Below, piece after piece: positions 1,285-53,877 of a DNA stretch of 54,525 nucleotides. Made by a program: the position numbers and the translations under genes. Numbering within the stretch: position 1 is the stretch's first letter; each line of letters opens with the position of its first letter. A model generated the notes under the pieces. The model was given only the letters and a program-made list of their open reading frames with translations, did not search any database and was not told the origin of the DNA. Location: positions 1 to 54,525 of the forward strand of contig JAABQX010000006.1 of the NCBI GenBank assembly GCA_011391215.1, written 5' to 3'. Source of the stretch: Rhodocyclaceae bacterium (GTDB taxonomy: Bacteria > Pseudomonadota > Gammaproteobacteria > Burkholderiales > Rhodocyclaceae).

Positions 1285-1901
1285 AGCTGACGGAGGGTAT
1301 CGCCGCCCTTGACTTAGTGTTGCCGTCAGGCACCAAGGAGAAACTGGACAACTATGTGCAATTGTTGACCAAGTGGAACCGCACCTACAATCTGACGGCG
1401 ATCCGTGATCCGGACGAAATGGTGACGCACCATCTGCTCGACTCCTTGGCTGTGTTACCGCTATTGGAAAAGTCGGTGCCGGCGGGACGGCAAGAGAGAA
1501 GGTTTGCCGATGTCGGTAGCGGCGCCGGCTTGCCCGGTCTGGTCTTGGCGATTGCCCGGCCGGACTGGAGGATTACTTCGATCGAGACCGTCGAGAAAAA
1601 AGCCGCCTTTCAGCGTCAGGTGAAGATCGAGTTGGGGTTGGCTAATGTGAGCATTCACTGTGCCCGTGTCGAAGACGTAGCAGAGAAGTTTACAGATACC
1701 ATCTCCCGCGCCTTCGCCAGCCTGGCTGACTTTGTCCGGTTTGCCGGCCATCTATCTTCCCGCCTGTGGGCGATGAAGGGTGTGTATCCTGCTGATGAGA
1801 TTGCGGCGTTGCCTGTCGGCTGGCAGGTGGCGGCGAGTCACGAACTTAGCGTGCCCGGCCTTAGCGCACAACGCCATTTGCTTCAACTGGAGAGAACCTG
1901 A
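1281..1901 (+). CDS. rsmG: RsmG (GidB), 16S rRNA guanine-527 N7-methyltransferase
   Basis: This SAM-dependent enzyme methylates G527 of 16S rRNA. The 206-residue protein has the N-terminal segment [20 protein letters not shown], the [12 protein letters not shown] helix, and the SAM-binding loop [10 protein letters not shown] at about residues 75-84. Between PLLE and RFADVGSG there are about 8 more residues (KSVPAGRQ) than in the E. coli protein as I remember it. These are encoded exactly by a copy of the dispersed 24-bp repeat (1468-1491), so the gene looks intact but carries an in-frame insertion in a surface linker. The start overlaps the mnmG stop, and parA follows after 2 nt. Confidence 0.96.
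1468..1491 (+). repeat. Dispersed 24-bp core repeat, copy 1 (inside rsmG)
   Basis: This copy reads AAAAGTCGGTGC followed by CGGCGGGACGGC and differs from the consensus at two positions. It is in sense orientation and is translated as KSVPAGR(Q). It is the only copy seen in the first 10 kb. Confidence 0.85.
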
Positions 1902-1903
1902 CG

Positions 1904-2698
1904 ATGCATATTTTTGCCATAGCCAACCAGAAAGGCGGGGTCGGCAAGACGACTACCTCGGTGAATCTGGCTGCCGCGCTGGCACAAGCCGGCAAGCGTG
2001 TGCTGCTGGTCGATCTCGATCCGCAGGGCAACGCCACCATGGGTTGCGGCATCGAAAAGCGTGGGCTGACACGCTCGGTTTACCAGTTGCTGGTCGGATT
2101 GAAGCCCCTGTCGGAAGTGCGCCAGACTTCCCCTGCCGCAGCCTTCGACGTATTGCCGGCAAATCGGGATCTTGCCGGTGCCGAAGTGGAGCTGGTCAAT
2201 CTGGATTTGCGCGAGATGCGCCTGAAGGGAGCGCTGCACGAGCATCGTTATGATTACGACTTTGTCCTGATCGACTGCCCGCCTTCATTGTCGATGTTGA
2301 CCTTGAATGGCCTGTGCGCCGCGCATGGCGTGATCATTCCGATGCAGTGCGAGTACTACGCGCTGGAGGGTTTGTCCGATCTGGTGAATACCATCAAGAA
2401 AGTGCATGCCAACCTGAATCGCGACCTCAAGATCATCGGCCTGCTGCGCGTGATGTTCGATCCGCGCTCGACGCTGTCGAATCAGGTGTCGGCGCAACTG
2501 GTAGAACATTTTGGTGACAAGGTGTTCAAGACGCTGGTGCCGCGCAATGTACGTCTGGCCGAAGCGCCCAGCTACGGCATACCGGGGGTATTGTTCGACA
2601 AGAATGCCAAGGGAGCGCAAGCCTATCTGGCCTTTGCGCAGGAAATGATCGAGCGCGTCAAGACTTGGGAACAGGAAAGGGAGAAGGCTGCATCATGA
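1904..2698 (+). CDS. parA: ParA/Soj chromosome partitioning ATPase
   Basis: This MinD/ParA-family ATPase binds DNA cooperatively and, with ParB, segregates the origin region. The 264-residue protein starts with the deviant Walker A motif KGGVGKTT (residues 10-17, with the signature Lys10 as well as Lys15), followed by the switch DLDPQGNATMG and the Walker B-like DFVLIDCPPSL. The C-terminal segment RNVRLAEAPSYGIPGVLFD is characteristic of chromosomal Soj-type ParA. It lies 2 nt after rsmG and its stop overlaps the parB start. Confidence 0.97.
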   Translation: MHIFAIANQKGGVGKTTTSVNLAAALAQAGKRVLLVDLDPQGNATMGCGIEKRGLTRSVYQLLVGLKPLSEVRQTSPAAAFDVLPANRDLAGAEVELVNLDLREMRLKGALHEHRYDYDFVLIDCPPSLSMLTLNGLCAAHGVIIPMQCEYYALEGLSDLVNTIKKVHANLNRDLKIIGLLRVMFDPRSTLSNQVSAQLVEHFGDKVFKTLVPRNVRLAEAPSYGIPGVLFDKNAKGAQAYLAFAQEMIERVKTWEQEREKAAS

Positions 2699-3543
2699 TG
2701 CAACGCAAAAAAGGCTTGGGACGTGGGCTGGAAGCCCTCCTCTCGGGCAACGACGGTGAGGCAGACCCGCAGCGTCAGGGCACCCTGCCGATCGGCGATC
2801 TGCAGCCGGGTAAATACCAGCCGCGCACCCGCATGGATCCAGGTTCGCTTGAGGACCTGGCTGCATCGATCAAGGTGCAAGGGCTGATCCAGCCGATTTC
2901 CGTACGCCCGGTGGCCAATGGGCGCTTCGAAATCATCGCCGGCGAACGGCGTTGGCGCGCCTCGCAGATCGCCGGTCTCACCGAGGTGCAGGTACTGATA
3001 CGCGACATTCCAGACGATGCGGCGCTGGCGATGTCGCTGATCGAGAACATCCAGCGCGAGGATTTGAATCCTCTCGAGGAAGCCGCCGGTCTGCAGCGCC
3101 TGATCGATGAATTCGGCATGACCCACCAGCAGGCTGCCGATGCCGTCGGGCGCTCACGCTCGGCCGCAAGCAATCTGCTGCGTTTGTTGCAACTGGCCAA
3201 ACCGGCGCAGGATCTGCTGATGGCCGGTGACATCGAGATGGGCCACGCCCGTGCGTTGCTGGCAGTGCCAAAAACCGAACAAGGCCGGTTGGCTGCCGAG
3301 GTGGCCGACAAAGGCTATTCGGTGCGCGATACTGAACGACGCGTTGCCCGCGAACTCAAACCGCCTGTCCCCAAACTTGGCCAGGAAAAAAACCGTGATC
3401 TGGTTCGTCTGGAAGAGGATATAGCAGATTCCATAGGTGCTACAGTGAAAGTGAGCGCTAACCGTAAAGGTGCGGGTTCCTTGGTAATCCGTTTTGGTAG
3501 CCTCGATCAGCTTGACGGGATATTGAAGCGCTTGCGCGGGTGA
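2695..3543 (+). CDS. parB: ParB/Spo0J centromere-binding protein
   Basis: This CTP-dependent DNA clamp nucleates on parS sites and stimulates ParA. The start at 2695 (ATG overlapping the parA TGA) gives 282 residues beginning MMQRKKGLGRGLEALLSG, the conserved ParA-stimulating N-terminus; a start further upstream would add an unrelated leader. The ParB nuclease-fold core includes the arginine-rich GERRWRAS loop and SLIENIQREDLNPLEEA. A helix-turn-helix (MTHQQAADAVGRSRSAASNLLRLL) and a C-terminal dimerisation region follow. No complete parS palindrome was found in the window. Confidence 0.96.
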   Translation: MMQRKKGLGRGLEALLSGNDGEADPQRQGTLPIGDLQPGKYQPRTRMDPGSLEDLAASIKVQGLIQPISVRPVANGRFEIIAGERRWRASQIAGLTEVQVLIRDIPDDAALAMSLIENIQREDLNPLEEAAGLQRLIDEFGMTHQQAADAVGRSRSAASNLLRLLQLAKPAQDLLMAGDIEMGHARALLAVPKTEQGRLAAEVADKGYSVRDTERRVARELKPPVPKLGQEKNRDLVRLEEDIADSIGATVKVSANRKGAGSLVIRFGSLDQLDGILKRLRG

Positions 3544-3581
3544 GGTCGACAGCAATAAAATGTTGCGACGCGGTAGAAATA

Positions 3582-3610
3582 TTGACTTATCTGCCCATTC
3601 ATTTTATATT
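3582..3610 (+). promoter_or_regulatory. Sigma70-type promoter of the atp operon
   Basis: TTGACT (3582-3587) and TATATT (3605-3610) are separated by exactly 17 bp in the AT-rich gap between parB and atpI. This is the only good promoter in the gap and points into the nine-gene atp operon. Confidence 0.7.
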
Positions 3611-3696
3611 TATACCCTTTGTACGGTAGCGCGTCGCGGTGCAATGGTGACTGGCGACATGAAAGAAAACGATGCGTAAGAAAGGCTTCCCGGGGC

Positions 3697-4044: not shown

Positions 4045-4048
4045 AAAC

Positions 4049-4882: not shown

Positions 4883-4927
4883 TTAGTCTGTAATCTCAAT
4901 CTCCCTTTTTCAACCTTCATTTTTTAA

Positions 4928-5191
<264 letters not shown>

Positions 5192-5225
5192 GCGGCGCCC
5201 CTTCAAGCCGAAAGGAGCGACAACC

Positions 5226-5696: not shown

Positions 5697-5702
5697 TCCG
5701 TC

Positions 5703-6236: not shown

Positions 6237-6246
6237 GAGTTTTTCA

Positions 6247-8705: not shown

Positions 8706-10112
<1,407 letters not shown>

Positions 10113-10628: not shown

Positions 10629-10652
10629 AAAAATCGGCTGTGGCGAGACGGC
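10629..10652 (+). repeat. Dispersed 24-bp core repeat, copy 2 (diverged, between convergent genes)
   Basis: AAAAATCGGCTG followed by TGGCGAGACGGC differs from the consensus at four positions. It sits just after the atp terminator and before the ubiJ stop, in the atpC/ubiJ convergent gap. Confidence 0.7.
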
Positions 10653-10669: not shown

Positions 10670-11236
10670 TCACGCAAGCGGTTTGGCGCGGCTCTCGAGA
10701 CGTAACAAATCGGCGTTCAGGCGCATGATGTCTGTACGAAATGCGCCGAATTCATGCACAGGGATTAGCAGTGGATTTTCCTGCGACAGATATTCGGCAA
10801 GGTTTTCGGCCAGGTTAACTGCTGCTTGTTTCTGCCAGGCAGCAAAGCGGCCAGCACCCTGTACCAGGCGATGCGCGGCAATGTCACCCACTACTCTGGA
10901 AAGATCCTCCTCGGCATCCCAGCGCAACTGACGGAAGACGAAAGACAGTTCGGTGGCGAATTCGGCATTGCCATCCACGCTGGCAAGGGCCATTACCTTT
11001 TCCAAACCCTGCGGCAACAGAAATGGCGTGTCGGCCGGCAGGCGGATGGTGACATCTGTTGCGGTCGGGTCGGGGTTTTGCTGCACCCGGCCATCGGCAT
11101 TGATTTCAAATGCAAAAACGATTGGCGGCATTTCGATCCGGGCGCGCCGGCCGGCAAACGGCTTAAGCCGGGCCTGTGCCCAATGGGCGCCGCCCAGGAG
11201 GTGGTCGAGGGCGGCGAGGAAAACTTGTTCGAGCAT
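10670..11236 (-). CDS. ubiJ: UbiJ-like ubiquinone biosynthesis accessory protein (SCP2 domain)
   Basis: UbiJ is an SCP2-type lipid-binding factor needed for aerobic ubiquinone synthesis. The ATG at 11236 gives 188 residues (MLEQVFLAALDHLLGGAHWA) and overlaps the stop of the Tim44-like gene as ATGA, which favours this start over one 33 nt upstream. The N-terminal SCP2 fold (IVFAFEINADGRV, ATDVTIRLPAD) is followed by a helical tail with the LRWDAEEDLSRVVGDIAAHRL segment typical of UbiJ. Proximity to ubiE supports the call. Identification is from family resemblance only. Confidence 0.85.
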   Translation of the reverse strand: MLEQVFLAALDHLLGGAHWAQARLKPFAGRRARIEMPPIVFAFEINADGRVQQNPDPTATDVTIRLPADTPFLLPQGLEKVMALASVDGNAEFATELSFVFRQLRWDAEEDLSRVVGDIAAHRLVQGAGRFAAWQKQAAVNLAENLAEYLSQENPLLIPVHEFGAFRTDIMRLNADLLRLESRAKPLA

Positions 11237-12123
11237 CAGCTGATCTGCTGAATACCGGCCACCAGCCAACCACGGCTGCCATCGAGGGGTTTGGTCAGGT
11301 GCCAGATTTCATCAAACGGTGCAGCGGCAGCACCGCTCTCTTCGCTTAGCAGGCCGTGAAAGCGCACGCTGGCGATGTGCTGATTATTTTCTGTCACGAC
11401 CTCGAGCAGGCTGGCATCGAGGTCGACAACATCGGTCTGCTGCGGGGTGCGGCCACGCTCCTCATATTGCAACTGCACCTCGGCGAAGATCTCGGGCCCG
11501 GTAAAGCTCTTGATATCGTCCATATCGCCACGGTCATTGGCGGCTTGCAGGCGCACAAAATTGAGCTTTGCTTGACGCAGGAAGCCCGTGCTGTCGAAAT
11601 CTGCAGGAATATTGGCTGAAGTTGCCGGTGTCGCCGTCCCGCCAGCGCCGACTTCTGCTGCATCAAAGTGCATGGGTTCGACGCGCTGCGCGCCGGCTCC
11701 AGCACCCGCATATTGCATTGCGCTCTGGGGCTCTTTCTTACGGAGCAGCAGGCGGACGACAAAGATTGCCGCCATGACCAGAAGGGCAATCATCAGGAAG
11801 TTGGCGACACCTTCACCCATGCCGAAATGTGAGAGCAGGGCGGCCAGGCCGATGCCGGCTGCGAGACCCGCGATAGGGCCGAGCCAGCTACGCTTGCCGG
11901 CGGCTTGCGCAGCTGCAGCCGGTGCAGCGCCGGGTGCCGCCTGCTGGGTGGGGGCGGTCGCCGACTTGGGCGGCACGGCGGACGACTGCGCCGGCGTGGT
12001 ACTGCGCGACATGCCGAAGGACTTGCTACCGCCCAGCCGTTTTGCTTCGGCATCGGAAGAAACAATGCCGAGACTGGTGAAAGTGACGAATGCAGCAATC
12101 AAGGTAATAAGAGTACGTTTCAT
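11236..12123 (-). CDS. Tim44-like domain membrane protein
   Basis: The 295-residue protein has an N-terminal signal peptide (MKRTLITLIAAFVTFTSLGI), an Ala/Pro-rich linker, two short membrane segments (WLGPIAGLAAGIGLAALLS and ANFLMIALLVMAAIFVVRLL), and a C-terminal Tim44-like domain (FLRQAKLNFVRLQAANDRGD to the end). Bacterial Tim44-domain proteins are inner-membrane proteins of unclear role. A copy of the 24-bp repeat encodes EVGAGGTA in the linker between the membrane part and the domain. It lies between ubiE and ubiJ, separated by 11 nt and by a 1-nt start/stop overlap respectively, so it is probably co-transcribed with them. Confidence 0.88.
   Translation of the reverse strand: MKRTLITLIAAFVTFTSLGIVSSDAEAKRLGGSKSFGMSRSTTPAQSSAVPPKSATAPTQQAAPGAAPAAAAQAAGKRSWLGPIAGLAAGIGLAALLSHFGMGEGVANFLMIALLVMAAIFVVRLLLRKKEPQSAMQYAGAGAGAQRVEPMHFDAAEVGAGGTATPATSANIPADFDSTGFLRQAKLNFVRLQAANDRGDMDDIKSFTGPEIFAEVQLQYEERGRTPQQTDVVDLDASLLEVVTENNQHIASVRFHGLLSEESGAAAAPFDEIWHLTKPLDGSRGWLVAGIQQIS
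11633..11656 (-). repeat. Dispersed 24-bp core repeat, copy 3 (inside Tim44-like gene)
   Basis: In minus orientation, sense to the gene, it is read as EVGAGGTA in the linker before the Tim44-like domain. It matches the core almost perfectly; the poly-A end is AGAAG. Confidence 0.88.
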
Positions 12124-21041: not shown

Positions 21042-21551
21042 TTATGGCATGTTTCTTGCGCAGTCAATCAGGCCATTCAATGCATAAATTACCGATTGAC
21101 GCCGGATCGCTTCGCGATCACCTGCAAAAAGTCGGCGCTGGCAGGACGGCGTTTCAATCAGCCCGTTATTGCGCAAACACCAACCGAAGCATACGGTCCC
21201 TACAGGCTTATCAGGTGAGCCACCCGTCGGGCCGGCTACCCCGGTGATAGCCAATGAAATCAAGGCATTGGAATTTTTTAATGCCCCGCTGGCCATTTCA
21301 CCCGCCGTTTCGACGCTGACTGCACCGAATTTATCTATAGTGTCCATATGAACACCTAGCATAGCCGTTTTTGCCTCATTTGTATAGGTCACGAAGCCGC
21401 GCTCAAACCACGCCGAGCTTCCCGGCGTGTGGGTGATGACTTGTGCCGCCCAGCCGCCGGTGCAGGATTCTGCGGTCGCGATCATCAGGCCGCGCGCGCG
21501 GCAGATCGCACCAACTTCTTCCGAGAGTGCCAGCAGTGCCGCATCCATCAA
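21042..21551 (-). CDS. pncC: PncC/CinA C-terminal domain, nicotinamide-nucleotide amidase
   Basis: This enzyme deamidates nicotinamide mononucleotide to nicotinate mononucleotide in the NAD salvage cycle. The 169-residue stand-alone domain has the [20 protein letters not shown] and [19 protein letters not shown] signatures. Near the C-terminus, just before [12 protein letters not shown], a copy of the dispersed repeat is read as PSCQRRLF and lengthens the loop by several residues relative to E. coli relatives as I remember them. The start overlaps the pgpA stop. Confidence 0.93.
21127..21150 (+). repeat. Dispersed 24-bp core repeat, copy 4 (inside pncC)
   Basis: AAAAGTCGGCGC followed by TGGCAGGACGGC has one mismatch to the core. 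It is antisense to pncC and translated as PSCQRRLF, just before the conserved FAGDRE motif. Confidence 0.88.
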
Positions 21552-22061: not shown

Positions 22062-23030
22062 TTATCCGAAGTGGTCGTAACCGCGTCGGGTAACTTCGAA
22101 TGCCTGACCGGCGGCATCCCGCACCGTCAATGCGCCCGGTGTGCCGGCTGCGATATTGCCCAGGTAGGTGAGCGGCAGCGCCAAGGTTATGGCCAATGCC
22201 GCGATCTCGGCATGGCGCGACGCGGGTGCGGTAAAGACCAGTTCATAGTCGTCGCCGCCGGAAAGGTAGCAGTTGTCCTCAAAAGTCGGCGCTGGCAGGA
22301 CGGCGTCAGCCGCTCCTGCCGCGTGAATGGGGACGGCAAGCGTCAGCGTCGCGGCTACGCCGGAGGCCTCTAATATGTGTCCGAGGTCGGCGAGCAAGCC
22401 GTCGGAAACATCGATGGCGGCTGTCGCGATTCCCCGCAGCGCCAGCCCGAGCGCCACGTGCGGCTGCGGACGGTGCAAGGCCGCCAGGCAATCAGACAAT
22501 AGCGGTTCGGCCAAAACGATGCGTCCTTGCAGGTGCGCCAAGCCGAGTGCGGCGCGACCGGGTGTGCCGGACACCCAGATTTCGTCGCCGGGTTGCGCGC
22601 CCGAACGCAGCAACGCGGTGCCTGCCGGTACTTCGCCGAAGATCGTCACGCAGAAATTACGCGGCCCCTGCGTCGTATCGCCGCCGATGACATCGATGCC
22701 GAACGTGTCGGCACAGGTGAAGAATCCGTGCGCAAACTTTTCGATCCAGCTTTCGGTAGCGGCAGGCAGAGCAACGGCCAGCAGCGCCCAGCGGGGTTGC
22801 GCGCCCATCGCGGCCAGGTCCGAGACATTTACCGCCAGCGTTTTCCAGCCGAGATCCTCGGCATCGGCGTTGGCGAGAAAATGCGTGCCGGCGACCAGCA
22901 TGTCGGTGGAGATGACCAGTTCGCAGCCGGCGCCCGGTCGCACGATGGCGCCGTCGTCGCCCACGCCGAGCACGGTATGCCGGGTAGGTCGCTTGAAATG
23001 GCGGTCGATCAGGGCAAACTCGGAAGGCAT
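22062..23030 (-). CDS. thiL: ThiL, thiamine-monophosphate kinase
   Basis: This enzyme phosphorylates thiamine monophosphate to thiamine diphosphate. The 322-residue protein has VGDDGAIVRPGAGCELVIST, the GGDTTQGPRNFCVTIFGEVP motif and LSGGDDYELVFTAP. In the segment before LSGGDDYE the sequence [19 protein letters not shown] is encoded by a composite repeat (33-bp unit plus 24-bp core, 22281-22337). The conserved catalytic regions are intact. nusB ends 27 nt upstream. Confidence 0.94.
   Translation of the reverse strand: MPSEFALIDRHFKRPTRHTVLGVGDDGAIVRPGAGCELVISTDMLVAGTHFLANADAEDLGWKTLAVNVSDLAAMGAQPRWALLAVALPAATESWIEKFAHGFFTCADTFGIDVIGGDTTQGPRNFCVTIFGEVPAGTALLRSGAQPGDEIWVSGTPGRAALGLAHLQGRIVLAEPLLSDCLAALHRPQPHVALGLALRGIATAAIDVSDGLLADLGHILEASGVAATLTLAVPIHAAGAADAVLPAPTFEDNCYLSGGDDYELVFTAPASRHAEIAALAITLALPLTYLGNIAAGTPGALTVRDAAGQAFEVTRRGYDHFG
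22281..22304 (+). repeat. Dispersed 24-bp core repeat, copy 5 (inside thiL)
   Basis: AAAAGTCGGCGC followed by TGGCAGGACGGC has one mismatch to the core. It is antisense to thiL and translated as AVLPAPTF. It is directly joined to a 33-bp extension unit. Confidence 0.9.
22305..22337 (+). repeat. 33-bp extension unit attached to the core repeat (thiL copy)
   Basis: This 33-bp segment directly follows the core and ends with GGGGACGGC. On the gene strand it encodes an 11-residue AVPIHAAGAAD. Two similar 33-bp units follow the core in dsbD (42742-42807). Confidence 0.8.
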
Positions 23031-28421: not shown

Positions 28422-28442
28422 GCCGTCCCGCCAGCGCCGACT
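28422..28442 (-). repeat. Dispersed 24-bp core repeat, copy 6 (intergenic, 3' of the FAH-family gene)
   Basis: GCCGTCCCGCC followed by AGCGCCGACT is a perfect core without the full A/T tail. It lies 44 nt downstream of the FAH-family stop. Confidence 0.85.
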
Positions 28443-28486
28443 AATGGAGGCCCCCTCATTCGAGGCAAATGCCGGTACTGGATCGG

Positions 28487-29254
28487 CTAACGGAAGATAT
28501 TGGTCAGATTGCCGATGCCGTCAATCGCCACTTCGACCGTATCGCTCTCTCGTAGCGGCCCCGCGCCAACCGAGGTACCGCAGGCGATGACATCACCGGG
28601 TTCCAGCGTCATGTCATGTGAAATCCGGCTGACGATCTCCGCCGGTGAGAAGAACATGTCGCTCACCGGATAGTTCTGGCGCTCTTCGCCGGAGATGACG
28701 GCACGCACGTGTAATTGCGCGGGGTCGAGACCTGTGGCGATAACGGGGCCGAATACGCCGAAGCTGTCGAAACCCTTGGCCCGTGTCCAATGCACGAAGG
28801 CCGGGTCGAGCCGCATCAGGTCGCGCGCGGTGACGTCATTCACACAGGTGTAGCCGAAGATCGCCGCCGCCGCCGCCGCCGCGTCGATGGTGGAAACACG
28901 CCGGCCGATGACGATGCCGAGCTCTGCTTCGAATACTACCGCCCCCGCGTAACCCGCCGGGCGGCGGATGGTGTCACCGTGCGCGGCGAAGCAGTTGTTG
29001 CTCTTGAGGAAATAGAGCGGATGCGCGGGGCGTTGCAAACCCTCTTTCTCGGCACGCTCATGGAAGTTGTTCTACAGCCCGATCATCTTGCTTGGCCGAC
29101 AGGGCGTGAGGATGCGCACGGCATCCAGCGGGTAATGACGCTGCGTCGGTTGCGGGTCGGCAAACATGTCGCCGCTCCATGTGGTGACCGTCGCGTTTTC
29201 GAGGGTGCCGAAATGTTCCGTGCCATCAGCGGCGAAGCGTAGCCAGAAGGTCAT
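28487..29254 (-). pseudogene. Fumarylacetoacetate hydrolase family gene with in-frame TAG
   Basis: The gene starts at the ATG at 29254 (MTFWLRFAADGTEHFGTLEN), overlapping the flavoprotein stop as ATGA. After PSKMIGL an amber TAG (29072-29074) stands where family members have Trp (IGLWNNFH, from memory). The same frame then continues without any shift through NNFHERAEKEG, the metal-site region VVFEAELGIVIG, NDVTARDLM, and GDVIACGTSVGAGPLR to the normal C-terminus. A single TGG-to-TAG change therefore explains the break; without it the protein would be 255 residues. FAH-family enzymes hydrolyse or decarboxylate C-C bonds of acylpyruvate-like substrates. Sequencing error or readthrough cannot be excluded. 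Confidence 0.8.
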
Positions 29255-30516
29255 GATCGAGGAATGTGTCCGGGTAAAAGAGGCGGTTGAGTTGCTTTGA
29301 GATAGTCGAGCACGCCTCGAGCGGCGACGCGACCGCTGGCCAGGCAAGCGGTGAGCAGGTAGCCACCGGTCGGCGCTTCCCAGTCGAGCATTTCGCCGGC
29401 ACAGAAAACGCCGGGCAGCTTGTGCAGCATTAACGCATCCGTCAGTTCGTCAAAACGCACGCCGCCGGCCGTGCTGATGGCTTCGTCGATGGGGCGCGGG
29501 GCACTTAGCGTGAGCGGCAACGCCTTGAGCAATGCCGCGAGTTGCGCGGGATCATCCAGTTGTGCGGCGCTGGCGACTTCGCGCAGCAGGCCCGCCTTGA
29601 CGCCTGTGATGCCGGCGCGGCGGCGCAGGTGGTTGGCCAGCGAATCGCGCCCGCGAGGTTGCTGCAGGTCGGCGGTCAGGCGCGCCAATTCGCGGCCGGG
29701 CGCCAGGTCGATGCTGAGGGTGGCGTGACCGTTCCGTTCGATGGCATCGCGCAGCGGCGCGGAAAGTGCGTAGATCAGGCCGCCTTCGACTCCATGGCGT
29801 GTGACGATGAACTCTCCCTGCCGGCTGATGTTGCCGAAGCTGGCTGTCACGCCCTTGACGGGCTGGCCGGCGAAGCGGTTGCGCAGGTGTTCGCTCCAGG
29901 CGCAATCGAAGCCGCAATTGGCCGGGCGCAGCGGGGCGCTGTCGATACCGCGCGCGGCGAGCAGCGGCAGCCAGGCGCCGTCGGAACCGAGCCGCGCCCA
30001 GCTGCCGCCGCCCAGCGCCAGTACCACGATTGCCGTCTCGCCAGCGCCGACTTTTCTTTCACCATCGGGCGTGGCAAAGCGCAGCGTACCCTCCTCCGTC
30101 CAGCCCAGCCAGCGGTGTCGCGGATGAAAGCGCACGCCCTGCTCCCCCAGTCTCCGCAGCCAGGCGCGCAGCAGCGGTGCGGCTTTCATGCTCCTGGGAA
30201 AGACGCGGCCGGAACTGCCGACGAAGGTTTCGACGCCGAGACTATGCGCCCAATCGCGCAAGGCTTGCGGGCCGAAGTCACTCAGCCAGTGGGCGACGTT
30301 TTCCCGTTGCGGGCCATAGCGCCGGAGGAAGTCTGCAGCCGGTTCGGCATGCGTGAGATTAAGTCCGCCGATGCCGGCACGCAGCAGCTTGCGGCCGACC
30401 GAGGGCATGGCGTCATAGATATCGACCACGATTCCGGCGGCGCTGATGACTTCTGCCGCCATCAGCCCGGCGGGGCCGGCGCCGATGATCGTGACGGGCG
30501 GTGAGCTTGCGATTAT
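29251..30516 (-). CDS. HI0933/PP_4765-type FAD flavoprotein lacking a normal start codon
   Basis: This NAD(P)/FAD-dependent oxidoreductase belongs to the family with GRKLLRAGIGGLNLTHAEPA and GGVRFDELTDALM. The essential FAD loop TIIGAGPAGLMAAEV is encoded upstream of the first ATG (30462). Between that loop and the preceding in-frame TAA (30523-30525, the stop of the PH-domain gene) there is no ATG, GTG or TTG; ATA at 30514-30516 stands where a start is expected. Either a rare start is used or ATG mutated to ATA. A copy of the 24-bp repeat is read as KVGAGETA before IVVLALGGGSWARLG. The substrate is unknown. Confidence 0.72.
   Translation of the reverse strand: MIASSPPVTIIGAGPAGLMAAEVISAAGIVVDIYDAMPSVGRKLLRAGIGGLNLTHAEPAADFLRRYGPQRENVAHWLSDFGPQALRDWAHSLGVETFVGSSGRVFPRSMKAAPLLRAWLRRLGEQGVRFHPRHRWLGWTEEGTLRFATPDGERKVGAGETAIVVLALGGGSWARLGSDGAWLPLLAARGIDSAPLRPANCGFDCAWSEHLRNRFAGQPVKGVTASFGNISRQGEFIVTRHGVEGGLIYALSAPLRDAIERNGHATLSIDLAPGRELARLTADLQQPRGRDSLANHLRRRAGITGVKAGLLREVASAAQLDDPAQLAALLKALPLTLSAPRPIDEAISTAGGVRFDELTDALMLHKLPGVFCAGEMLDWEAPTGGYLLTACLASGRVAARGVLDYLKATQPPLLPGHIPRS
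30032..30055 (-). repeat. Dispersed 24-bp core repeat, copy 7 (inside flavoprotein gene)
   Basis: GCCGTCTCGCC followed by AGCGCCGACTTTT has one mismatch to the core. It is sense to the gene and translated as KVGAGETA. Confidence 0.88.
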
Positions 30517-30960: not shown

Positions 30961-33900
30961 TTACTGCTGTGCCGGCGGCTCCTTCTCGGCGGTAATTTCG
31001 CTGGCCAACTCGCTGGCAACTGAGGGCGCGCCTTCCATCCAGGCTTCCGGCGCACGGCGCAAATCGAGCGTTAGCGGGTAATCGGGATTGCGGCCTTCGC
31101 GACGGAGGTGCATGGCTCCGGGCGTGTGGCCGTGGTTCCAGAAACGCGCGACGCGGCGGGCTTCGGCTTCATTGGCATTCACCGGGAAGGTGTCGTAGTT
31201 ACGGCCGCCGGGATGGGCGACATGGTAGGTGCAGCCGCCGATCGAACGGCCGCTCCAGCTATCTACCAGGTCGAATACCAGCGGTGCCTGCACGTCGATG
31301 GTCGGGTGCAGGCCGGAGGGCGGGCACCAGGCACGGTAGCGCACGCCGGCGACAAACTCGCCGCGTGTGCCGGTGGGCGTGAGCGGCAGCGGCCGGCCGT
31401 TGCAGGTGACGATATGGCGCGTGTCGTGCATGTGGCGCACCTTGACCTGCAGGCGTTCGACCGAGGAATCGACGTAGCGTGCCGTCCCGCCGGCGCCGAC
31501 TTCTTCGCCGAGCACATGCCAGGGTTCGATGGCCTGACGCAGTTCGATCTCGACGCCGTGATAAACGACGGTGCCGAAGCGCGGAAAACGGAATTCGAGG
31601 AAGGGCGCGAACCAGTCGAATTCGAAGGCATAGCCGGCACGCTGCAGGTCCAGCACTACGTCGCGCATGTCCTGCGCCACGTAATGCGGCAGCATGAAGC
31701 GGTCGTGCAGTTCAGTGCCCCAGCGCATCAGGCTGCCCTGATAGGGTTTCTGCCAGAAGCGCGCGACCAGCGCGCGCAACAGCAACATCTGCAACAGCAA
31801 CATCTGCGCGTGCGGCGGCATCTCGAAGCCGCGGAACTCGATGAGGCCGAGCCGGCCGGTGGCGCTGTCGGGCGAATACAGCTTGTCGATGCAGAACTCG
31901 GCGCGGTGCGTGTTGCCGGAGAGATCGATGAGCAGGTTACGCAGCAGGCGATCCACCAGCCAAGGCTGCAGTGACTCTTCACCGGCTTTGAGTTTTTCCG
32001 CCATTTGCTGGAAAGCGATTTCCAGCTCGTAAAGGCTTTCGTGACGTGCCTCGTCGACGCGCGGCGCCTGGCTGGTGGGGCCGATGAACAGGCCGGAGAA
32101 CAGGTAGGAGAGCGCGGGGTGATGTTGCCAGTAAGTGATCAAACTCATCAGCAGGTCGGGCCGGCGCAGGCAGGGCGAGTCGGCGGGGGTGGCCGCGCCC
32201 AGCGTGACGTGGTTGCCGCCGCCGGTGCCGGTATGGCGGCCGTCGAGCATGAACTTTTCGGTACCGAGGCGGGTCAGGCGTGCTTCCTCGTAGAGTGTCT
32301 GGGTGTTCTCGACCAGTTGTGTCCAGGCACTCGTGGGATGGATGTTCACTTCGATCACGCCGGGGTCGGGCGTGATGCGGAATTCCTTGAGGCGTGGATC
32401 GGACGGCGGCGTGTAGCCTTCGAGTCGCAGCGGCAAGTCGAGCGCGGCGGCAGTGGTTTCGATGGCGGTTAGCAGAGTAATGAAGTCTTCCAGCAAGGGG
32501 ATCGGTGGCAGGAAGACGCACAGAATGCCGTCGCGCACTTCGGCGCAGAGGGCGGTATGCACGATTTCCTTGGGTGCGTAGCTGTCTTTGAGCTTCGATT
32601 TGGGCGGACTTGCTGTTGTGGTATCGGGCAGTGCATCGGGCGTATCGAAGGGATCGCGGCCGACCTCCTCTTCTTTCTCGCCGGGGGCCACCCAGGGCAG
32701 CGAGGCCAGCGGCAGGCGCAGGCCGAGCGGCGAATCGCCGGGAATCAGGTACAGATGTTCACGCTTCAATGGCCACGGGCTGGAACGAAAGCGTATGGAA
32801 AAGTCGGCGCTGGCGGGACGGCGCCCCTTGTTTGTCGGGGCGGGCGGCAGGGCTTTCAGCGGCAGCACATAGCCCGCTGCCGCGCCAAGCCCACGCTCGA
32901 TCAGCTTGGCAACGCGCCGGCGCTCGTCAGGGGCTTTCAGATCGAACTTGAGCGGATCGAAATTCTCCGGCCAGCGCTGTTCCTCGTCGATGATGCGGGT
33001 GACGTCCTCGAAGGCGGGGATGACGAAGTTTTCGTCGATCCCGAGTTCCTGCGCCAGGTGTTGAATGAAGGTTTTGGCGTCTTCCGCCGTCTGCGCGCCG
33101 GCGCCGTCCGTCGTCACCAGCAGCTTGCGGTTGTTCCACAAGGGCTTGCCGTCGGTACGCCAGTAGCAGCCGAGCGCCCAGCGCGGCAGCGGTTCGCCGG
33201 GATACCACTTGCCCTGGCCGTAATGTAGCATCGCGCCCGGCGCGAAATGGCCTTGCAGGCGGTTGAGCAGGTCGCCCGCCAGTTCGCGCTTTTTGTCTGA
33301 GAGCGCAGTGAAATTCCACTCCGGTCCCTCCATATCGTCGATTGAGACGAAAGTCGGCTCGCCGCCCATGGTCAGGCGCACATCGTGTTTAGCCAGTTCG
33401 GCATCGACCTGGTGGCCGAGGTCGAGCAGCGCCTGCCATTGCGCTTCGGTGTAGGGCTGGGTGACGCGTGGATCTTCGTGGATGCGCGTGACCTGCATGG
33501 CGAAGTCGAAGTGTGTCTCGCAGACTTCGGTACCGCCGATCACCGGCGCGGCCGAGGACGGCATGGCCGTGCAGGCGAGCGGAATGTGGCCCTCGCCGGC
33601 CAGCAGGCCCGAGGTCGGGTCGAGGCCGATCCAGCCGGCGCCGGGGATGAACACTTCTGTCCAGGCGTGCAGGTCGGTGAAGTCGTGGTCGGTGCCCGAG
33701 GGGCCGTCGAGCGCCTTGACATCGGCCTTCAGCTGGATCAGATAGCCCGAGGCGAAGCGCGCCGCGAGGCCGAGATGACGCAGCGCCTGCACCAGCAGCC
33801 AGGCCGAATCGCGACAGGAGCCGCGCTTCAGCGTCAGCGTTTGTTCCGGTGTCTGCACACCGGCTTCGAGGCGCACGATGTAACCGACATCACCCTGCAC

Positions 33901-39004: not shown

Positions 39005-39028
39005 AAAAATCGGCGTTGGCGGGACGGC
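39005..39028 (+). repeat. Dispersed 24-bp core repeat, copy 10 (intergenic)
   Basis: AAAAAATCGGCG followed by TTGGCGGGACGGC matches the core with about two mismatches. It lies 38 nt upstream of the PEBP-like gene start, in the divergent gap 38968-39284 (317 bp). Nothing else recognisable is in that gap apart from the ribosome binding site GGAGG (39273-39277) of the next gene. Confidence 0.8.
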
Positions 39029-39284: not shown

Positions 39285-39689
39285 ATGAAAATGCGCTTGA
39301 TGGCTTTGTCGGTTCTGGCCTGTAGCAGTTTGCTGTCACTGTCGCCGCCTGCGGTGGCATACGGCGGTGGCCCGTGGGGTGGTGGCGCCCCATGGGATCG
39401 TTTTGATGGTCCGTGGAATGGCGGCGGTGGCCCGTGGAACAGGGGCGGTTCGTACGGCCCGTGGGGTGGTGATGCTCCGTGGGATCGTTTTGACGGTCCG
39501 TGGAACAGTTTTGACGGCCCGTGGAATAGCGGCGGTGGTCCGTGGAACAGGGGCGGTTCGTACAATCGACGTGGCCCGTGGGGTGGTGATGCCCCGTGGG
39601 ATCGGGTTGATGGCCCGTGGAACAGTTTTGACGGCCCATGGAACAACCGTGGCCGACGTGGCCGTAGCTTCAGCCCATTCAACTGGTAG
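39285..39689 (+). CDS. Secreted Gly/Trp/Pro-rich repeat protein (sulfur-globule-protein-like)
   Basis: The 134-residue protein has a signal peptide (MKMRLMALSVLACSSLLSLS, cleaved after AVA) and a mature part of near-perfect tandem modules built from GPWNxxDGPWN, GGGPWNRGGSY and GDAPWDRFDGPWN. A strong GGAGG lies 7 nt before the ATG. The composition resembles glycine/proline/tryptophan-rich sulfur globule proteins of purple sulfur bacteria, but this is resemblance in composition only. It could be any structural or surface protein. The DNA shows corresponding imperfect tandem repeats. Confidence 0.75.
   Translation: MKMRLMALSVLACSSLLSLSPPAVAYGGGPWGGGAPWDRFDGPWNGGGGPWNRGGSYGPWGGDAPWDRFDGPWNSFDGPWNSGGGPWNRGGSYNRRGPWGGDAPWDRVDGPWNSFDGPWNNRGRRGRSFSPFNW
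39378..39659 (+). repeat. Imperfect tandem coding repeats (GPWN/APWDRFD modules)
   Basis: Units such as GGTCCGTGGAAC and GGTGATGCCCCGTGGGATCG recur in the secreted protein gene. The block GDAPWDR(F/V)DGPWNSFDGPWN occurs twice nearly identically at DNA level, so the locus is prone to repeat expansion and contraction. Confidence 0.75.
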
Positions 39690-41355: not shown

Positions 41356-41403
41356 AAAAGTCGGCGTGACCGAAGGAAATCCCCGTGGGACTGGCGGGAC
41401 GGC
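41356..41403 (+). repeat. Dispersed core repeat, copy 11, split by a 24-bp insertion
   Basis: The left half AAAAGTCGGCG (41356-41366) and right half CTGGCGGGACGGC (41391-41403) are perfect but separated by 24 nt (41367-41390). It lies between the hypothetical gene and the dsbD stop, 6 nt from the latter. Confidence 0.8.
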
Positions 41404-41409: not shown

Positions 41410-43260
41410 TTATTTCTGCGCATTTTCCAGTACGCCGAGAAATTGTGCTGCTGGCTGATAGCCTACCACACGCTGGCCCGTAATTTCCTGGCCGGCCTTG
41501 TCGAAAAAGATGATGCCGGGCGGGCCGAACAGGCCGAAGCGCTTGAGCAGCGCTTTGTCATCCTCGTTGTTGGCGGTGACATCTGCCTTGAGTAGCGTGA
41601 ATTCCTTCATCTTCGCAGCGACCGTCGGGTCGGCGAAGGTGAACTTTTCCATCTCCTTGCAGCTCACGCACCAGTCGGCATAGAAGTCGAGCATCACCGG
41701 TCGGGTAGCGTTGGCGAGGCGGGCATCAAGTTCGGCGACCGTCTTGACCTTTTCAAAAGTCGGCGCTGGCGAGACGGCGGCGGCGTTCGCGCCACGCAGG
41801 AAAGCCAAAGGTTGCAGCGGGTCGCGTCCGCCGCCAAGCAGGCCGAGCAGCATTGCCGCACCGGTGAGCAACAGCGCCACGCCGATGCCTTTCCAGAAGC
41901 GTTGCCAGCCGCCGGCGTGCGGGGGCAGCGGGTCGAGCGCATGCAGGTAGATCGCCGGCACGATCAGCAGTGACGCCCAGCCGAGCATGATCGTCCAGCT
42001 CGGCAGCACCGGCGAGATCAGCCAGAGTGCGGTGGCGAGCAGCACGACGCCGAAGAACTTCTTGACGGCTTCCATCCACGGGCCCGCCTTGGGCAGGAAA
42101 GAGCGCGAAAACACACCGACCACCAGTAGCGGCGCACCCATGCCGAGGCCCATGGCGAAGAGTGCTGCGCCGCCGAGCACGGCATCTTTGGTCTGGGCGA
42201 TGTAGAGCAGCGCGCCGGCGAGTGGTGCGGCGACGCAGGGGCCGACGATGAGCGCCGACAAGGCACCCATCAGCGCGATGGCAGCCAGCGAGCCGCCCTG
42301 CTGGTTGGCTGTGTCGGAGAGCTTCGATTGCAGTGCGGCGGGCAATTGCAGTTCATAGAAGCCGAACATCGAGAACGAGAGCACGACGAAGACGAGTGCG
42401 AAGCTGCCGAGTACCCAGGCGTTCTGCAAGGCGGCCGACAGTAGCGTACCGGAGAAGCCGGCCGCGACGCCGACGAGGGCGTAGGTGATCGCCATGCCCA
42501 GCACATAGGCGAGCGAGAGCACGAAGGCGCGCAGGTGTGTGACGGCATGGCCGTGATTGACGATGATGCCGGAGAGAATCGGGATCATCGGGAACACGCA
42601 GGGCGTGAGCGAGAGCAGCAGCCCGAAGCCGAGGAAGGTAAAAATCGCGACCCAGAAACCGCTACCTTTGAGCAGCCTGGCGATCTGGCCGCTCTCGTCT
42701 CCTGCATCGCCCGTGGATAAAGTCGGCGCTGGCGGGACGGCAACAGCCGGATCCGCCACGTTGAAGGGGACGGCGCTAGCCGGGCCCGCCGTGTTGATGG
42801 GGACGGCGCCGGGGGAAGAAGCCGGCGCGCTGCTCATTGCCGCCAGCGTGATTTTGGCCTCCTGCGTCATGGGCGGATAGCAGATGCCGCCATCCCAGCA
42901 ACCCTGCGAGTCGGCCTTTAGCGTGAAAGCGCCGCTGCCAGCAACGACGGGGATGCGTACGACCAGTTGCGTGCGGTAAGTTTCGACCTTGCCGAAGAAC
43001 TCGTCTTCCTTTTCCTTGCCCGGCGGGATCTCCGGCGTGCCGAGCTGCACCGTGGCAGGATCCACAGCGAAGGCGATCTTGTTCTTGTAGAGGTAGTAGT
43101 CGGGCGTGATGTCCCAGCGTGCCTCGATGGTTTTATCGTCCAGCGCACGGGCCGAGAAGCGGAAGGCCTTTTCGGGGTCGAGCGGTTCGGCGGCAAGGCT
43201 GAATTGGCTGGCAAGGACGAACCAGAGCAGGGTAAGCAGGCGCAACGGCTGGATAGACAT
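41410..43260 (-). CDS. dsbD: DsbD, thiol:disulfide interchange protein
   Basis: DsbD carries electrons from cytoplasmic thioredoxin to periplasmic thiol proteins. The 616-residue protein has a signal peptide, an N-terminal domain with CWDGGICYPP, eight predicted membrane helices with the redox cysteines in LTPCVFPMIP and VGPCVAAPLAGAL, and a C-terminal thioredoxin domain with DWCVSCKEME. Two linkers carry repeat elements: AVPPAPTL plus two 11-residue AVP units before the membrane part, and AVSPAPTF before the thioredoxin domain. The ATG at 43260 is preceded by AGGA; an ATG two codons upstream is possible. cutA lies 7 nt upstream. Confidence 0.95.
   Translation of the reverse strand: MSIQPLRLLTLLWFVLASQFSLAAEPLDPEKAFRFSARALDDKTIEARWDITPDYYLYKNKIAFAVDPATVQLGTPEIPPGKEKEDEFFGKVETYRTQLVVRIPVVAGSGAFTLKADSQGCWDGGICYPPMTQEAKITLAAMSSAPASSPGAVPINTAGPASAVPFNVADPAVAVPPAPTLSTGDAGDESGQIARLLKGSGFWVAIFTFLGFGLLLSLTPCVFPMIPILSGIIVNHGHAVTHLRAFVLSLAYVLGMAITYALVGVAAGFSGTLLSAALQNAWVLGSFALVFVVLSFSMFGFYELQLPAALQSKLSDTANQQGGSLAAIALMGALSALIVGPCVAAPLAGALLYIAQTKDAVLGGAALFAMGLGMGAPLLVVGVFSRSFLPKAGPWMEAVKKFFGVVLLATALWLISPVLPSWTIMLGWASLLIVPAIYLHALDPLPPHAGGWQRFWKGIGVALLLTGAAMLLGLLGGGRDPLQPLAFLRGANAAAVSPAPTFEKVKTVAELDARLANATRPVMLDFYADWCVSCKEMEKFTFADPTVAAKMKEFTLLKADVTANNEDDKALLKRFGLFGPPGIIFFDKAGQEITGQRVVGYQPAAQFLGVLENAQK
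41755..41778 (+). repeat. Dispersed 24-bp core repeat, copy 12 (inside dsbD, before thioredoxin domain)
   Basis: AAAAGTCGGCGC followed by TGGCGAGACGGC has one mismatch to the core. It is antisense to dsbD and read as AVSPAPTF in the linker between membrane and thioredoxin domains. Confidence 0.92.
42718..42741 (+). repeat. Dispersed 24-bp core repeat, copy 13 (inside dsbD, periplasmic linker)
   Basis: TAAAGTCGGCGC followed by TGGCGGGACGGC is a perfect core apart from its first base. It is antisense to dsbD, read as AVPPAPTL, and directly followed by two 33-bp extension units. Confidence 0.92.
42742..42807 (+). repeat. Two tandem 33-bp extension units (dsbD)
   Basis: The units at 42742-42774 and 42775-42807 each end in GGGGACGGC and on the gene strand encode AVPFNVADPAV and AVPINTAGPAS. 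They match the single unit in thiL in length, sequence, position after the core, and reading frame. Confidence 0.85.
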
Positions 43261-43267
43261 GGGCATC

Positions 43268-46043: not shown

Positions 46044-46067
46044 GCCGTCCCGCCAGCACCGAGTTTT
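46044..46067 (-). repeat. Dispersed 24-bp core repeat, copy 14 (intergenic, upstream of kinase)
   Basis: GCCGTCCCGCC followed by AGCACCGAGTTTT has two mismatches to the core. It lies about 58 nt upstream of the kinase start, in the divergent gap before the DUF2934 gene. Confidence 0.82.
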
Positions 46068-47141: not shown

Positions 47142-47164
47142 GCTGTCCCGCCAGTGCCGACTTT
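47142..47164 (-). repeat. Dispersed 24-bp core repeat, copy 15 (at the pgm stop codon)
   Basis: GCTGTCCCGCC followed by AGTGCCGACTTT has two mismatches to the core. On the pgm strand it begins within the stop codon (TGA then AAGTCGG), so gene end and element are fused. Confidence 0.88.
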
Positions 47165-48798
47165 CAGGCTAATGCAGCCGTGACGATCTGTTGCGCCTCG
47201 GCGACGATCTGCTGCAAGTGCGCTTCGCTCTTGAAGCTTTCGGCGTAGAGTTTGTAGATGTCTTCCGTGCCGGACGGGCGGGCGGCGAACCAGCCATTTT
47301 CCGTCGTCACCTTGAGGCCGCCGATCGGTGCATCGTTGCCGGGCGCGCGGGTCATGCGTGCGGTAATGGTCTCGCCGGCCAGTGTGGCGGCGGCAACTTT
47401 CTCGCCGGTGAGCTGTTTGAAGGCGGCCTTCTGCGCCGGGCTGGCCGGTGCATCGATGCGGATGTAATAGGGCGTGCCGTATTTCGCGGCCAATTCCTGA
47501 TAGTGGCGGCCGGGGTCCTTGCCGGTAACGGCGGTGATCTCGGCGGCGAGCAGGCCGAGGATAATGCCGTCCTTGTCCGTGGTCCACGCCGATCCATCCA
47601 GCCGCAGGAAACTCGCACCAGCACTTTCTTCACCGCCGAAGCAGAAATCGCCTTCGAGCAACCCGCTCGAGAACCACTTGAAGCCGACTGGCACCTCAAG
47701 GAATTTACGGCCAAGGCCATTCACCACGCGGTCGATCAGACCGGAGGACACCAGCGTTTTGCCGACGGCAGCAGATGTCGGCCATTGCGGGCGATGGGTG
47801 AGCAGGTAGTTGATCGACACCGCGAGGTAATGGTTGGGGTTCATCAGGCCGATGGATGATGTGACGATACCGTGGCGATCAACATCGGCGTCGTTGCCCC
47901 AGGCGATGTCGAACTTGTCCTTGAGCCCGACCAGGCTGGCCATGGCGTAGGGGCTCGAGCAGTCCATGCGGATCTTGCCGTCGTGGTCGAGCGTCATGAA
48001 GCTGAACGCGCCATCGACCTTGGGATTGACCACCTCGATGTTCAGGCCATAGTACTTGGCAATCGGTAGCCAGTAGGCGACTGCCGCGCCGCCCATCGGG
48101 TCGACGCCGATGCGCAGATTGGCCTGCTTGATCGCCGCCATGTCGATGACTTCGCCGAGCGCTGCGATGTAGGGCGTCATCAGATCGACCGCCTTCGTCG
48201 TCGGCGCGGCGAGCGCCTGTGCATACGGCATGCGCTTGACGTCCTTGTTGCCAGCCGCCATCAGCGCATTGGCGCGCTGTTCGATCCAGCCGGTGACATC
48301 GGTATCGGCCGGGCCGCCGTGCGGCGGGTTGTATTTGATGCCGCCATCCTGCGGCGGGTTGTGCGACGGCGTGATGACGATGCCGTCGGCGCGCGGCGCG
48401 GTCTTGTCAGTGTTGTGGGCGAGGATGGCGCGCGAGATCACCGGCGTCGGTGTGTAGCCGCCGTCAGCCTGTAAATGAGTGATTACGCCGTTGGCGGCGA
48501 GTACTTCGAGCGTCGTCTGCTGCGCGGGGGCGGAGAGTGCGTGGGTATCCATGCCGAGGAACAGCGGGCCGGTGATGCCCGCCCCGGCGCGGTATTCGGC
48601 GACGGCCTGGGCGATGGCCAGAATGTGCGCTTCATTGAAGCTGCCGTGGAGCGCACTGCCGCGATGCCCGCTGGTGCCGAAGGCGACGCGCTGGGTTGGC
48701 TGGGTGACATCCGGGGTGTTACGGTAAGCCGCCAGCAGCGCGGGAATATCGGTGAGACTGGTTTGCGGGGCCGGTTGGCCTGCGAGGGGGTGGGTCAT
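47164..48798 (-). CDS. pgm: Phosphoglucomutase, alpha-D-glucose specific
   Basis: This enzyme interconverts glucose-1-phosphate and glucose-6-phosphate. The 544-residue protein has the N-terminal [20 protein letters not shown], the phosphoserine loop [20 protein letters not shown], the metal loop [10 protein letters not shown] and [11 protein letters not shown]. Its length matches E. coli Pgm. The gene ends within a copy of the dispersed repeat. It is divergent from the coiled-coil gene. Confidence 0.97.
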
Positions 48799-48882
48799 CG
48801 TCTATCTCCTTTTTTTGCCTGAACTAGCAGGCTTTACATGCCGCTATTCTAGCCTCCGCCTCGCGTTGAGGCGCGTTAGTCT

Positions 48883-49785: not shown

Positions 49786-49787
49786 AA

Positions 49788-51683: not shown

Positions 51684-51691
51684 CGCCGCAG

Positions 51692-51715
51692 GCCGTCCCG
51701 CCAGTGCCGACTTTT
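51692..51715 (-). repeat. Dispersed 24-bp core repeat, copy 16 (between convergent genes)
   Basis: GCCGTCCCGCC followed by AGTGCCGACTTTT has one mismatch to the core. It lies between the radical SAM stop (51683) and the HD-protein stop (51732). Confidence 0.9.
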
Positions 51716-51731
51716 TACGGCGGGATACGCC

Positions 51732-53087: not shown

Positions 53088-53164
53088 GAATGAAGCACCT
53101 CGAGCAGTGAAGTTACCCTCGATTCTAAAGATTCGATCTGCGCCGGATCGGTGAAAATAGCAGC

Positions 53165-53752
53165 ATGGCGCACCCTCTCTGGCACCTTTACCTTCTGGAA
53201 TGCGCGGACGGCTCACTCTACACAGGCATCACCATTGACGTCCAGCGGCGTTTTCGCGATCATTTAAATGGCAAAGCTGCGCGTTATACCCGTTCCCACA
53301 AAGCCCTGCGCTTGGTAGCATGCAGCCCTGTCGGCTCGCGCTCGGAGGCGCTGCGGGCCGAAATGGAAATCAAGCGATTGCCGAAGGCAAAGAAGTTCGC
53401 CGCCGTACAATTGCTTGCCCGATTATTTACCCATGACTCTCAAAGGAATGACAACATGAATAAATCCGAACTCATCGAAGCCGTTGCCAAGTCTGCTGAA
53501 CTCTCCAAGGTCGATGCCGAGAAGGCCCTGTCGGCCGTGATCGCTACTGTCGTCAAGGCAGTGGCCAAGGGCGACACGGTAACCCTGGTCGGCTTCGGCA
53601 CCTTCAAGTCATCCAAGCGCGCCGCGCGTACCGGCCGCAATCCAGCCACCGGCGCCGCGCTGAAGATCGCCGCTACCACTGTGCCGCGCTTTACGGCTGG
53701 CGCCACCTTCAAGGCTACCGTTGCCGGCAAGAAGGCTGCGAAGAAGAAGTAA
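53165..53752 (+). CDS. GIY-YIG nuclease-domain frame continuous with HU
   Basis: The first ~85 residues are a UPF0213/YhbQ-type GIY-YIG domain (HLYLLECADGSLYTGITIDV, RRFRDHLNGKAARYTRSHKA, EMEIKRLPKAKKFAAV). Such proteins normally end shortly after this point. Here no stop codon occurs: the frame runs through LFTHDSQRNDN directly into MNKSELIEAV of HU, giving a potential 195-residue fusion. HU also has its own ribosome binding site and start at 53457, so both a fusion and free HU could be made. It may be a true fusion or the stop may have been lost. Confidence 0.75.
   Translation: MAHPLWHLYLLECADGSLYTGITIDVQRRFRDHLNGKAARYTRSHKALRLVACSPVGSRSEALRAEMEIKRLPKAKKFAAVQLLARLFTHDSQRNDNMNKSELIEAVAKSAELSKVDAEKALSAVIATVVKAVAKGDTVTLVGFGTFKSSKRAARTGRNPATGAALKIAATTVPRFTAGATFKATVAGKKAAKKK
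53457..53752 (+). CDS. hupB: HU-type nucleoid protein
   Basis: The 98-residue histone-like protein starts MNKSELIEAVAKSAELSKVD and has TLVGFGTFKSSKRAARTGRN followed by PATG, the DNA-intercalating proline arm, and a lysine-rich tail ending GKKAAKKK. The ATG at 53457 is preceded by AAAGGA at 53440-53445. The same frame is open into the upstream GIY-YIG domain. An intrinsic terminator follows. Confidence 0.95.
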
Positions 53753-53774
53753 AGCGGAGAAATAAGGCAGGCAC

Positions 53775-53805
53775 CGGTACCCTGCTGAAGCGGGGTACCG
53801 TTTTA
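53775..53805 (+). terminator. Intrinsic terminator after hupB
   Basis: CGGTACCC (53775-53782) pairs perfectly with GGGTACCG (53793-53800), with a 10-base loop and a TTTTAT tail. Confidence 0.88.
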
Positions 53806-53853
53806 TCTGCAATTGATTTTTCCGGGGCGTTGCACGTATGAACTGCTTGCAAC

Positions 53854-53877
53854 GCCGTCCCGCCAGCGCCGACTTTT
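53854..53877 (-). repeat. Dispersed 24-bp core repeat, copy 17 (at ferritin-like stop codon)
   Basis: This is a perfect core. On the ferritin-like gene strand the stop TAA overlaps the A-tract of the element (TAAAAGTCGG), so the element supplies part of the stop codon. Confidence 0.93.

Follow-up and report, generated by a model that had tools for sequence, protein, structure and literature searches.

A dispersed, bipartite 24-bp motif of Rhodocyclaceae as a candidate DNA uptake sequence

The stretch of DNA analyzed here (the window) comprises 54,525 nucleotides of contig JAABQX010000006.1 from a Rhodocyclaceae bacterium (assembly GCA_011391215.1) and contains a dispersed repeat with the 24-bp consensus AAAAGTCGGCGCTGGCGGGACGGC. 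We found that a DNA-level constraint holds the copies of this motif in place. Judged from genome comparisons, it is probably a DNA uptake sequence, belonging to a third and independent system in the Rhodocyclaceae.

Copy number, phyletic distribution and dialects

The initial annotation of the window described a family of 24-bp repeats occurring at 17 positions and in both orientations. This family is real: 16 of the 17 coordinates correspond to copies with no more than four mismatches to the consensus, eight on each strand, while at position 41356 the motif is not intact but split by a 24-bp insert. The copies with 0, 1, 2, 3 and 4 mismatches number 2, 7, 5, 1 and 1, respectively, and beyond them there are no matches with 5 or 6 mismatches and a single one with 7. 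Order-3 Markov controls derived from the window (n=60) contain no copies at up to four mismatches and on average 2.15 at seven. The sparse beginning noted in the annotation is also borne out, with 3 of the 16 copies in the first 20 kb. A genome-wide count, suggested there as a check against base composition, gave 252 + 282 = 534 matches with at most three mismatches to the 23-mer in the source genome (G000; 2.33 Mb analyzed, 76% complete), as opposed to 1 for the reversed control, and the density is indeed far above chance.

Among 12 other genomes sampled from the same genus, 11 contain 311-728 copies and one (G006) contains none. A sample of 150 genomes from the family includes 15 with at least 200 copies (from genera g1, g10, g17, g46, g54 and g72), two with 30-37 (G042 and G064), and 133 with 18 or fewer. 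With the looser pattern AAAGTC-N12-ACGGC, searched in 395 genomes of the family, counts are high in g1, g10, g17, g19, g46, g54 and g72 and lower in g31, g53 and g74, i.e. the motif extends over about ten genera. Individual members of these genera deviate: 16 of 19 genomes of g1 have at least 149 matches to this pattern, and the others have 27 (G005), 10 (G273) and 2 (G006); in g19 the corresponding figures are at least 177 in 13 of 16 genomes and 48, 24 and 5 in the remaining three. The drop in G005 occurs because its variant ends with ACGGT (8 sites). In G006 we found no hidden dialect, as 289 kb of its sequence contain no over-represented 12-mer of such kind. The motif-free relative G025 (stretches L249-L258) exhibits an over-represented word resembling repetitive extragenic palindromic (REP) sequences (CTGTGGGAGCGGC, CTGTGGGAGCGGCGGCC).

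Outside the family, among 386 of the 399 genomes in the order sample, the maximum is 18 copies (G475), and all others have 8 or fewer. At least 80 named records are listed for the exact 23-mer; most of these are labeled as Rhodocyclaceae or member genera (e.g. Sulfuritalea), and some bear other labels given by the submitters. The exact motif was also found in 40 stretches of a viral collection, a raw count given without a computed expectation. Several motif-poor genomes (G038, G075, G102 and G475) harbor small numbers of exact and near-exact copies, in part close together on the same contig, possibly left by DNA that came from motif-rich relatives.

The consensus starts with AAAGTCGGCG; its information content is high over positions 0-22, with positions 15-17 weaker, and nothing is shared between copies beyond one base on either side. 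In G030 we found 21 instances (via AAGTCAGTCC) of the variant AAAGTCAGTCC...ACGGC with constant spacing, i.e. the distance to ACG is the same in all 21, and the next two bases, GC, are each retained in 20 of them. The variant from G064 is characterized by GTCGACG (25 of the 26 matches listed), G083 reads CTGGtga-ACGGCG, and the copies in G099 end with ACGGCA. All dialects examined keep the anchors AAAGTC and ACGG, with the exception of genus g74, in which copies often end with ACGCC (several of those listed). The fixed spacing across dialects indicates two anchors, AAAGTC and ACGG(C), at a set distance, with a middle part that varies by genus. The copies are thus fixed-length, genus-specific variants ("dialects") of one 24-bp bipartite motif.

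Conservation at orthologous positions and placement

Orthologous regions from 12 relatives provided spanning alignments for 56 of 88 sites. After the removal of comparisons with flank identity below 0.60, we were left with 355 site-by-genome comparisons, which are not independent of each other. None of them exhibits a gap of 18 or more positions; gaps of 8-17 were found in 27, and otherwise the motif, where it is not retained, is replaced in place. Retention was observed in 215 of 311 comparisons with motif-rich genomes, in 2 of 13 with G064, and in none of 31 with the motif-free G006 and G025, in which 29 of the 31 facing sequences are in-place replacements and the other two have gaps of 8-17. 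Changes of dialect likewise occur in place at orthologous positions. Of the 12 genomes aligned at the copy at 41755, 10 retain it with 19-24 of 24 positions identical, among them G065 and G064 from other genera; it is absent from G006 and G025. The initial annotation regarded conservation at orthologous positions in other genera as an argument against the repeat. Some sites are indeed shared in this manner, which refutes insertion, but the repeat itself stands, because the motif is more conserved than its flanks, the reading frames differ, and G006 and G025 lack it.

A separate comparison of G001 and G012 (about 230 kb, 87% identity where aligned) leads to the same picture. With unalignable sites set aside (16 of 69 and 26 of 75, respectively), 51 of 53 aligned sites from G001 and 44 of 49 from G012 face a motif with at most five mismatches. 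Sequence identity amounts to 0.90 within the motif, 0.83 in the flanks and 0.87 in all aligned DNA, i.e. the flanks fall below the value for all aligned DNA and the motif above it, which indicates that the motif is conserved within locally fast-changing DNA. It is not an inserted element.

The placement of copies was studied in 8 genomes, whose analyzed 1.02 Mb contain 254 sites, with genes predicted by a simple codon-based caller. Predicted genes harbor 166 sites, gene edges 12, and intergenic regions 76; thus, 65% of sites are genic compared to 89% of bases that are coding, and 30% are fully intergenic compared to 11% of bases that are non-coding. The sites are therefore located in permissive regions and enriched between genes. 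The genic ones comprise 78 in sense and 88 in antisense orientation and cover all six combinations of frame and orientation, of which two are rare (3 and 1 sites). The spacing of copies, analyzed in two genomes, is more even than in a null model that preserves the genic/intergenic split: the coefficients of variation are 0.62 and 0.64 compared to null means of 1.04 and 1.03 (0 of 5000 simulations in each case), and we observed 4 and 10 pairs less than 1 kb apart, where 19.8 and 22.7 were expected. Regular spacing has been reported for uptake sequences.

Copies in the window and a nested palindromic element

The copies within predicted genes of the window occur in both orientations with respect to the gene. 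In the sense orientation they are found at 1468..1491 (plus strand, 2 mismatches, gene 1281-1901), 11633..11656 (minus, 1 mismatch, gene 11236-12123), 30032..30055 (minus, 1 mismatch, gene 29251-30462) and 31481..31504 (minus, 2 mismatches, gene 30961-34365), the last of which is replaced in place without gaps in G001 and G012. Antisense copies, all on the plus strand, are located at 22281..22304 (1 mismatch, gene 22062-22973), 32799..32822 (perfect, gene 30961-34365), and 41755..41778 and 42718..42741 (1 mismatch each, both in gene 41410-43266). Two copies lie between convergent genes, at 10629..10652 (plus, 4 mismatches) and 51692..51715 (minus, 1 mismatch), and others in intergenic regions at 28422..28445 (minus), 39005..39028 (plus) and 46044..46067 (minus), with 2 mismatches each. 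A further copy called intergenic, at 21127..21150 (plus, 1 mismatch), is kept by the orthologs in G003, G012, G001, G009 and G010. Gene edges are occupied by the copy at 47142..47165 (minus, 3 mismatches, edge of gene 47164-48798) and by a perfect one at 53854..53877 (minus, 3' edge of gene 53876-54391). In the region 39369-39652 of the window, a block of about 80-96 bp with abundant GGCCCGTGG is repeated within overlapping open frames.

At the disrupted site (41356..41403, plus strand) the left half AAAAGTCGGCG (41356-41366) is separated from the right half CTGGCGGGACGGC (41391-41403) by the 24-bp insert TGACCGAAGGAAATCCCCGTGGGA (41367-41390). The 24-mer itself is not a palindrome, in agreement with the initial annotation, whereas the insert is an imperfect one. 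It represents an element of 24-27 bp, TGACCG-N-AGG-N-AATCCC..., often found inside the motif and also apart from it; in addition to 41367-41390 in the window, it is present e.g. in L180 near 3301, L020 near 1563 and L323 near 2705. Among 22 distinct contexts of TGACCG-N-AGG-N-AATCCC in the loci analyzed, the element directly follows the left half of the motif in 10, sits in the motif in inverted orientation in 1, and occupies a later position in the g74 dialect in 2; in 1 only a right half is present, and 8 are outside the motif, although the share inside is biased, because many of these loci were chosen for holding motifs. With at most one mismatch, the palindrome pattern occurs in 74 of the 150 family genomes, including motif-poor ones, in up to 59 copies. 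At 32799 the motif of the window is intact and its ortholog in G008 is split by a 24-bp insert. The palindromic element, unlike the motif, behaves like an insertion.

Possible function and relationship to known systems

The origin of copies in place, their strong upkeep, the dialects, the strand symmetry, the permissive placement and the mutual repulsion of copies have sequence-biased uptake followed by recombination as their simplest cause. Among the three readings offered in the initial annotation, an uptake or recombination signal fits best, with the role in uptake deduced from the pattern. In such a system, a DNA receptor borne by a type IV pilus would bind the motif on free DNA, and fragments carrying it would be preferentially imported and recombined. 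This biased import, perhaps together with selection, would create and restore copies at permissive places, approximately one per transferred fragment. A change in the specificity of the receptor would give rise to a new dialect, and the copies would decay once the specificity was lost. The receptor, the uptake bias and the resulting drive are all inferred from the pattern of sequences.

Several observations weigh against this interpretation. Profile searches with ComP_DUS, GspH, ComEC and MshL revealed no receptor. ComEC is encoded in 42 of 43 panel genomes; its presence in all 26 that bear the motif or a dialect speaks for the uptake reading, but motif-free genomes carry it too, and it fails to separate the two groups. 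The same is true for the ComP_DUS-type pilin (39 of 41 genomes) and the GspH-type pilin (39 of 43), and MshL, which scores above the cut-off in 103 of the 150 family genomes, provides no discrimination either. Matches to GspH/FimT are missing from the motif-rich G065, G064, G030 and G000; G000, whose genome is incomplete, has no match to ComP_DUS either. Unaligned, probably accessory blocks show no consistent depletion of the motif of the kind expected for uptake sequences (2.06 against 3.01 copies per 10 kb in G001, and 3.59 against 3.03 in G012). The motif is also about twice as long as the known uptake cores, and a set of 333 sites includes no inverted pairs, which are common for the DNA uptake sequence (DUS) of Neisseriaceae; the three pairs within 100 bp are all on the same strand. 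Most copies are in genes, as opposed to the mostly intergenic DUS in Neisseria (PMC2397512). Finally, uptake sequences of H. influenzae are unevenly spread around the chromosome (PMC7811141), so even spacing is no fixed hallmark of such sequences.

We rejected the possibility that minor pilins of the MSHA system track the motif within the genus, as several motif-rich genomes have 0-1 GspH matches and MshL is widespread. Clusters of minor pilins at L321 (G001), L401 (G099) and L402 (G002), which we take to be of the MSHA type according to their gene order and signal peptides, are possible carriers of the putative DNA receptor.

The failure to identify a receptor, as well as the lack of visible depletion in accessory DNA, also speaks for a rival view, in which the motif would be a signal for chromosome maintenance or recombination (Chi-like, FtsK-guiding, or a site for a nucleoid-structuring protein) kept by selection at the DNA level, which would explain the constraint, the even spacing and the high copy number equally well. 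Chi and the FtsK-orienting (KOPS) signals are, like the motif, short and numerous and act as DNA-level signals within genes; they are about 8 bp long and strand-biased by replichore. The Rhodocyclaceae motif shows no such bias: in a GC-skew test on 20 stretches taken from G099, whose genome is a single contig, its copies are divided between the strands as 18/19 in stretches of positive skew and 22/22 in those of negative skew. Since copies occur in 18 of the 20 stretches of this complete chromosome (two have none), they do not cluster at ori or ter. The strand symmetry in G099 rules out a signal of the Chi/KOPS type, and genus-level dialects and the absence from G006, a member of the same genus, would be odd for a core function. 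We consider a role of this kind, taken broadly, unlikely.

It is much less probable that the motif is a small mobile or otherwise copied repeat, e.g. a REP sequence or a miniature inverted-repeat transposable element (MITE), inserted at many places. It resembles such elements in being dispersed in many copies, in both orientations and with a defined length, and the same genomes do harbor a different, palindromic element that behaves like an insertion. However, clean empty sites, terminal inverted repeats and hairpins typical for REP and MITE were not found for the motif: none of the 355 comparisons has an insertion-sized gap, 51 of 53 sites are common to two species, the dialects switch in place, and the non-palindromic motif folds no better than its shuffled versions (z 0.36). 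The absence of empty-site gaps speaks strongly against an insertion element, and the non-autonomous mobile element proposed in the initial annotation is not supported. Its suggestion of a selfish repeat tolerated in proteins holds with respect to the tolerance (166 of 254 sites are in predicted genes), but not with respect to copying by insertion. We attach a similarly low probability to a site of restriction-modification, defense or another DNA-marking system, or to some other function; the only point in its favor is that the evidence on the cause of the constraint is indirect, and an evenly spaced, bipartite 24-bp site is not known from such systems. Least probable of all is a peptide- or RNA-level feature (a linker peptide, a terminator or a small RNA target), since, despite the recurrence of common in-frame readings and the position of 24 copies between convergent genes (of 67 intergenic ones flanked by called genes on both sides), it is contradicted by the equal use of sense and antisense orientations and the six frames, the lack of inverted pairs and the ordinary folding.

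According to a paper from 2025 (PMC12616744), Neisseriaceae and Pasteurellaceae are the only two families with known uptake sequences. Our search of openly accessible journal papers found no earlier description of the motif, nor any uptake sequences reported from Rhodocyclaceae, Rhodocyclales, Sulfuritalea or Burkholderiales, hence we take the motif as new, on purely comparative evidence. If it is an uptake sequence, it would be a third, unrelated case, found in environmental bacteria, while both known families have many host-associated members; this would demonstrate that self-biased DNA uptake evolves repeatedly and outside the mucosa. Its dialects, gained and lost even within individual genera, would also be new material for the study of co-evolution between receptors and motifs. 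Interpreters of these genomes would moreover be cautioned that stretches of eight residues in the proteins, e.g. KVGAGGTA or AVPPAPTF, are imposed by DNA and not by protein function.

The DUS of Neisseriaceae, recognized by the receptor ComP, is similar to the motif in that it occurs in hundreds to thousands of copies, in both orientations and in permissive places, and is conserved inside fast-changing DNA, with 97% identity compared to about 85% around it (PMC2397512); it also has dialects at the genus and species level (PMC3630211). On the other hand, DUS spans up to about 13 continuous nucleotides, while the Rhodocyclaceae motif is bipartite, with 24 bp, and occurs approximately once per 3-5 kb, mostly in genes and without inverted pairs. 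The motif matches neither the DUS 12-mer ATGCCGTCTGAA nor any described dialect, and the consensus differs throughout except for GCCGTC; this 6-mer, present on the reverse strand of the motif, may be shared with the Neisseria DUS by chance.

The uptake signal sequence (USS) of Pasteurellaceae, with the proposed receptor ComN/PpdA, shares with the motif discontinuous phased segments, the existence of dialects (two, specific to subclades) and an origin by mutation in place (PMC1626085, PMC12616744). The latter is at odds with the account given for DUS, which have been proposed to originate by recombination (PMC2397512). The sequences differ (the extended Hin-USS is AAAGTGCGGTCAATTTT), as do the classes of hosts, and the GC-rich second half is longer in the motif, whose consensus contains no match to the USS cores AAGTGCGGT and ACAAGCGGT. 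The start of the motif, AAAGTCGG, is one base short of the Pasteurellaceae AAAGTGCGG, possibly by chance. We find it somewhat easier to believe than to doubt the complete picture, in which the Rhodocyclaceae would possess a third system of self-DNA recognition for transformation, independently evolved. Its motif would be the longest of all uptake motifs and the only one of clearly bipartite build; about ten genera would have dialects of it, and a palindromic element would parasitize it by insertion.

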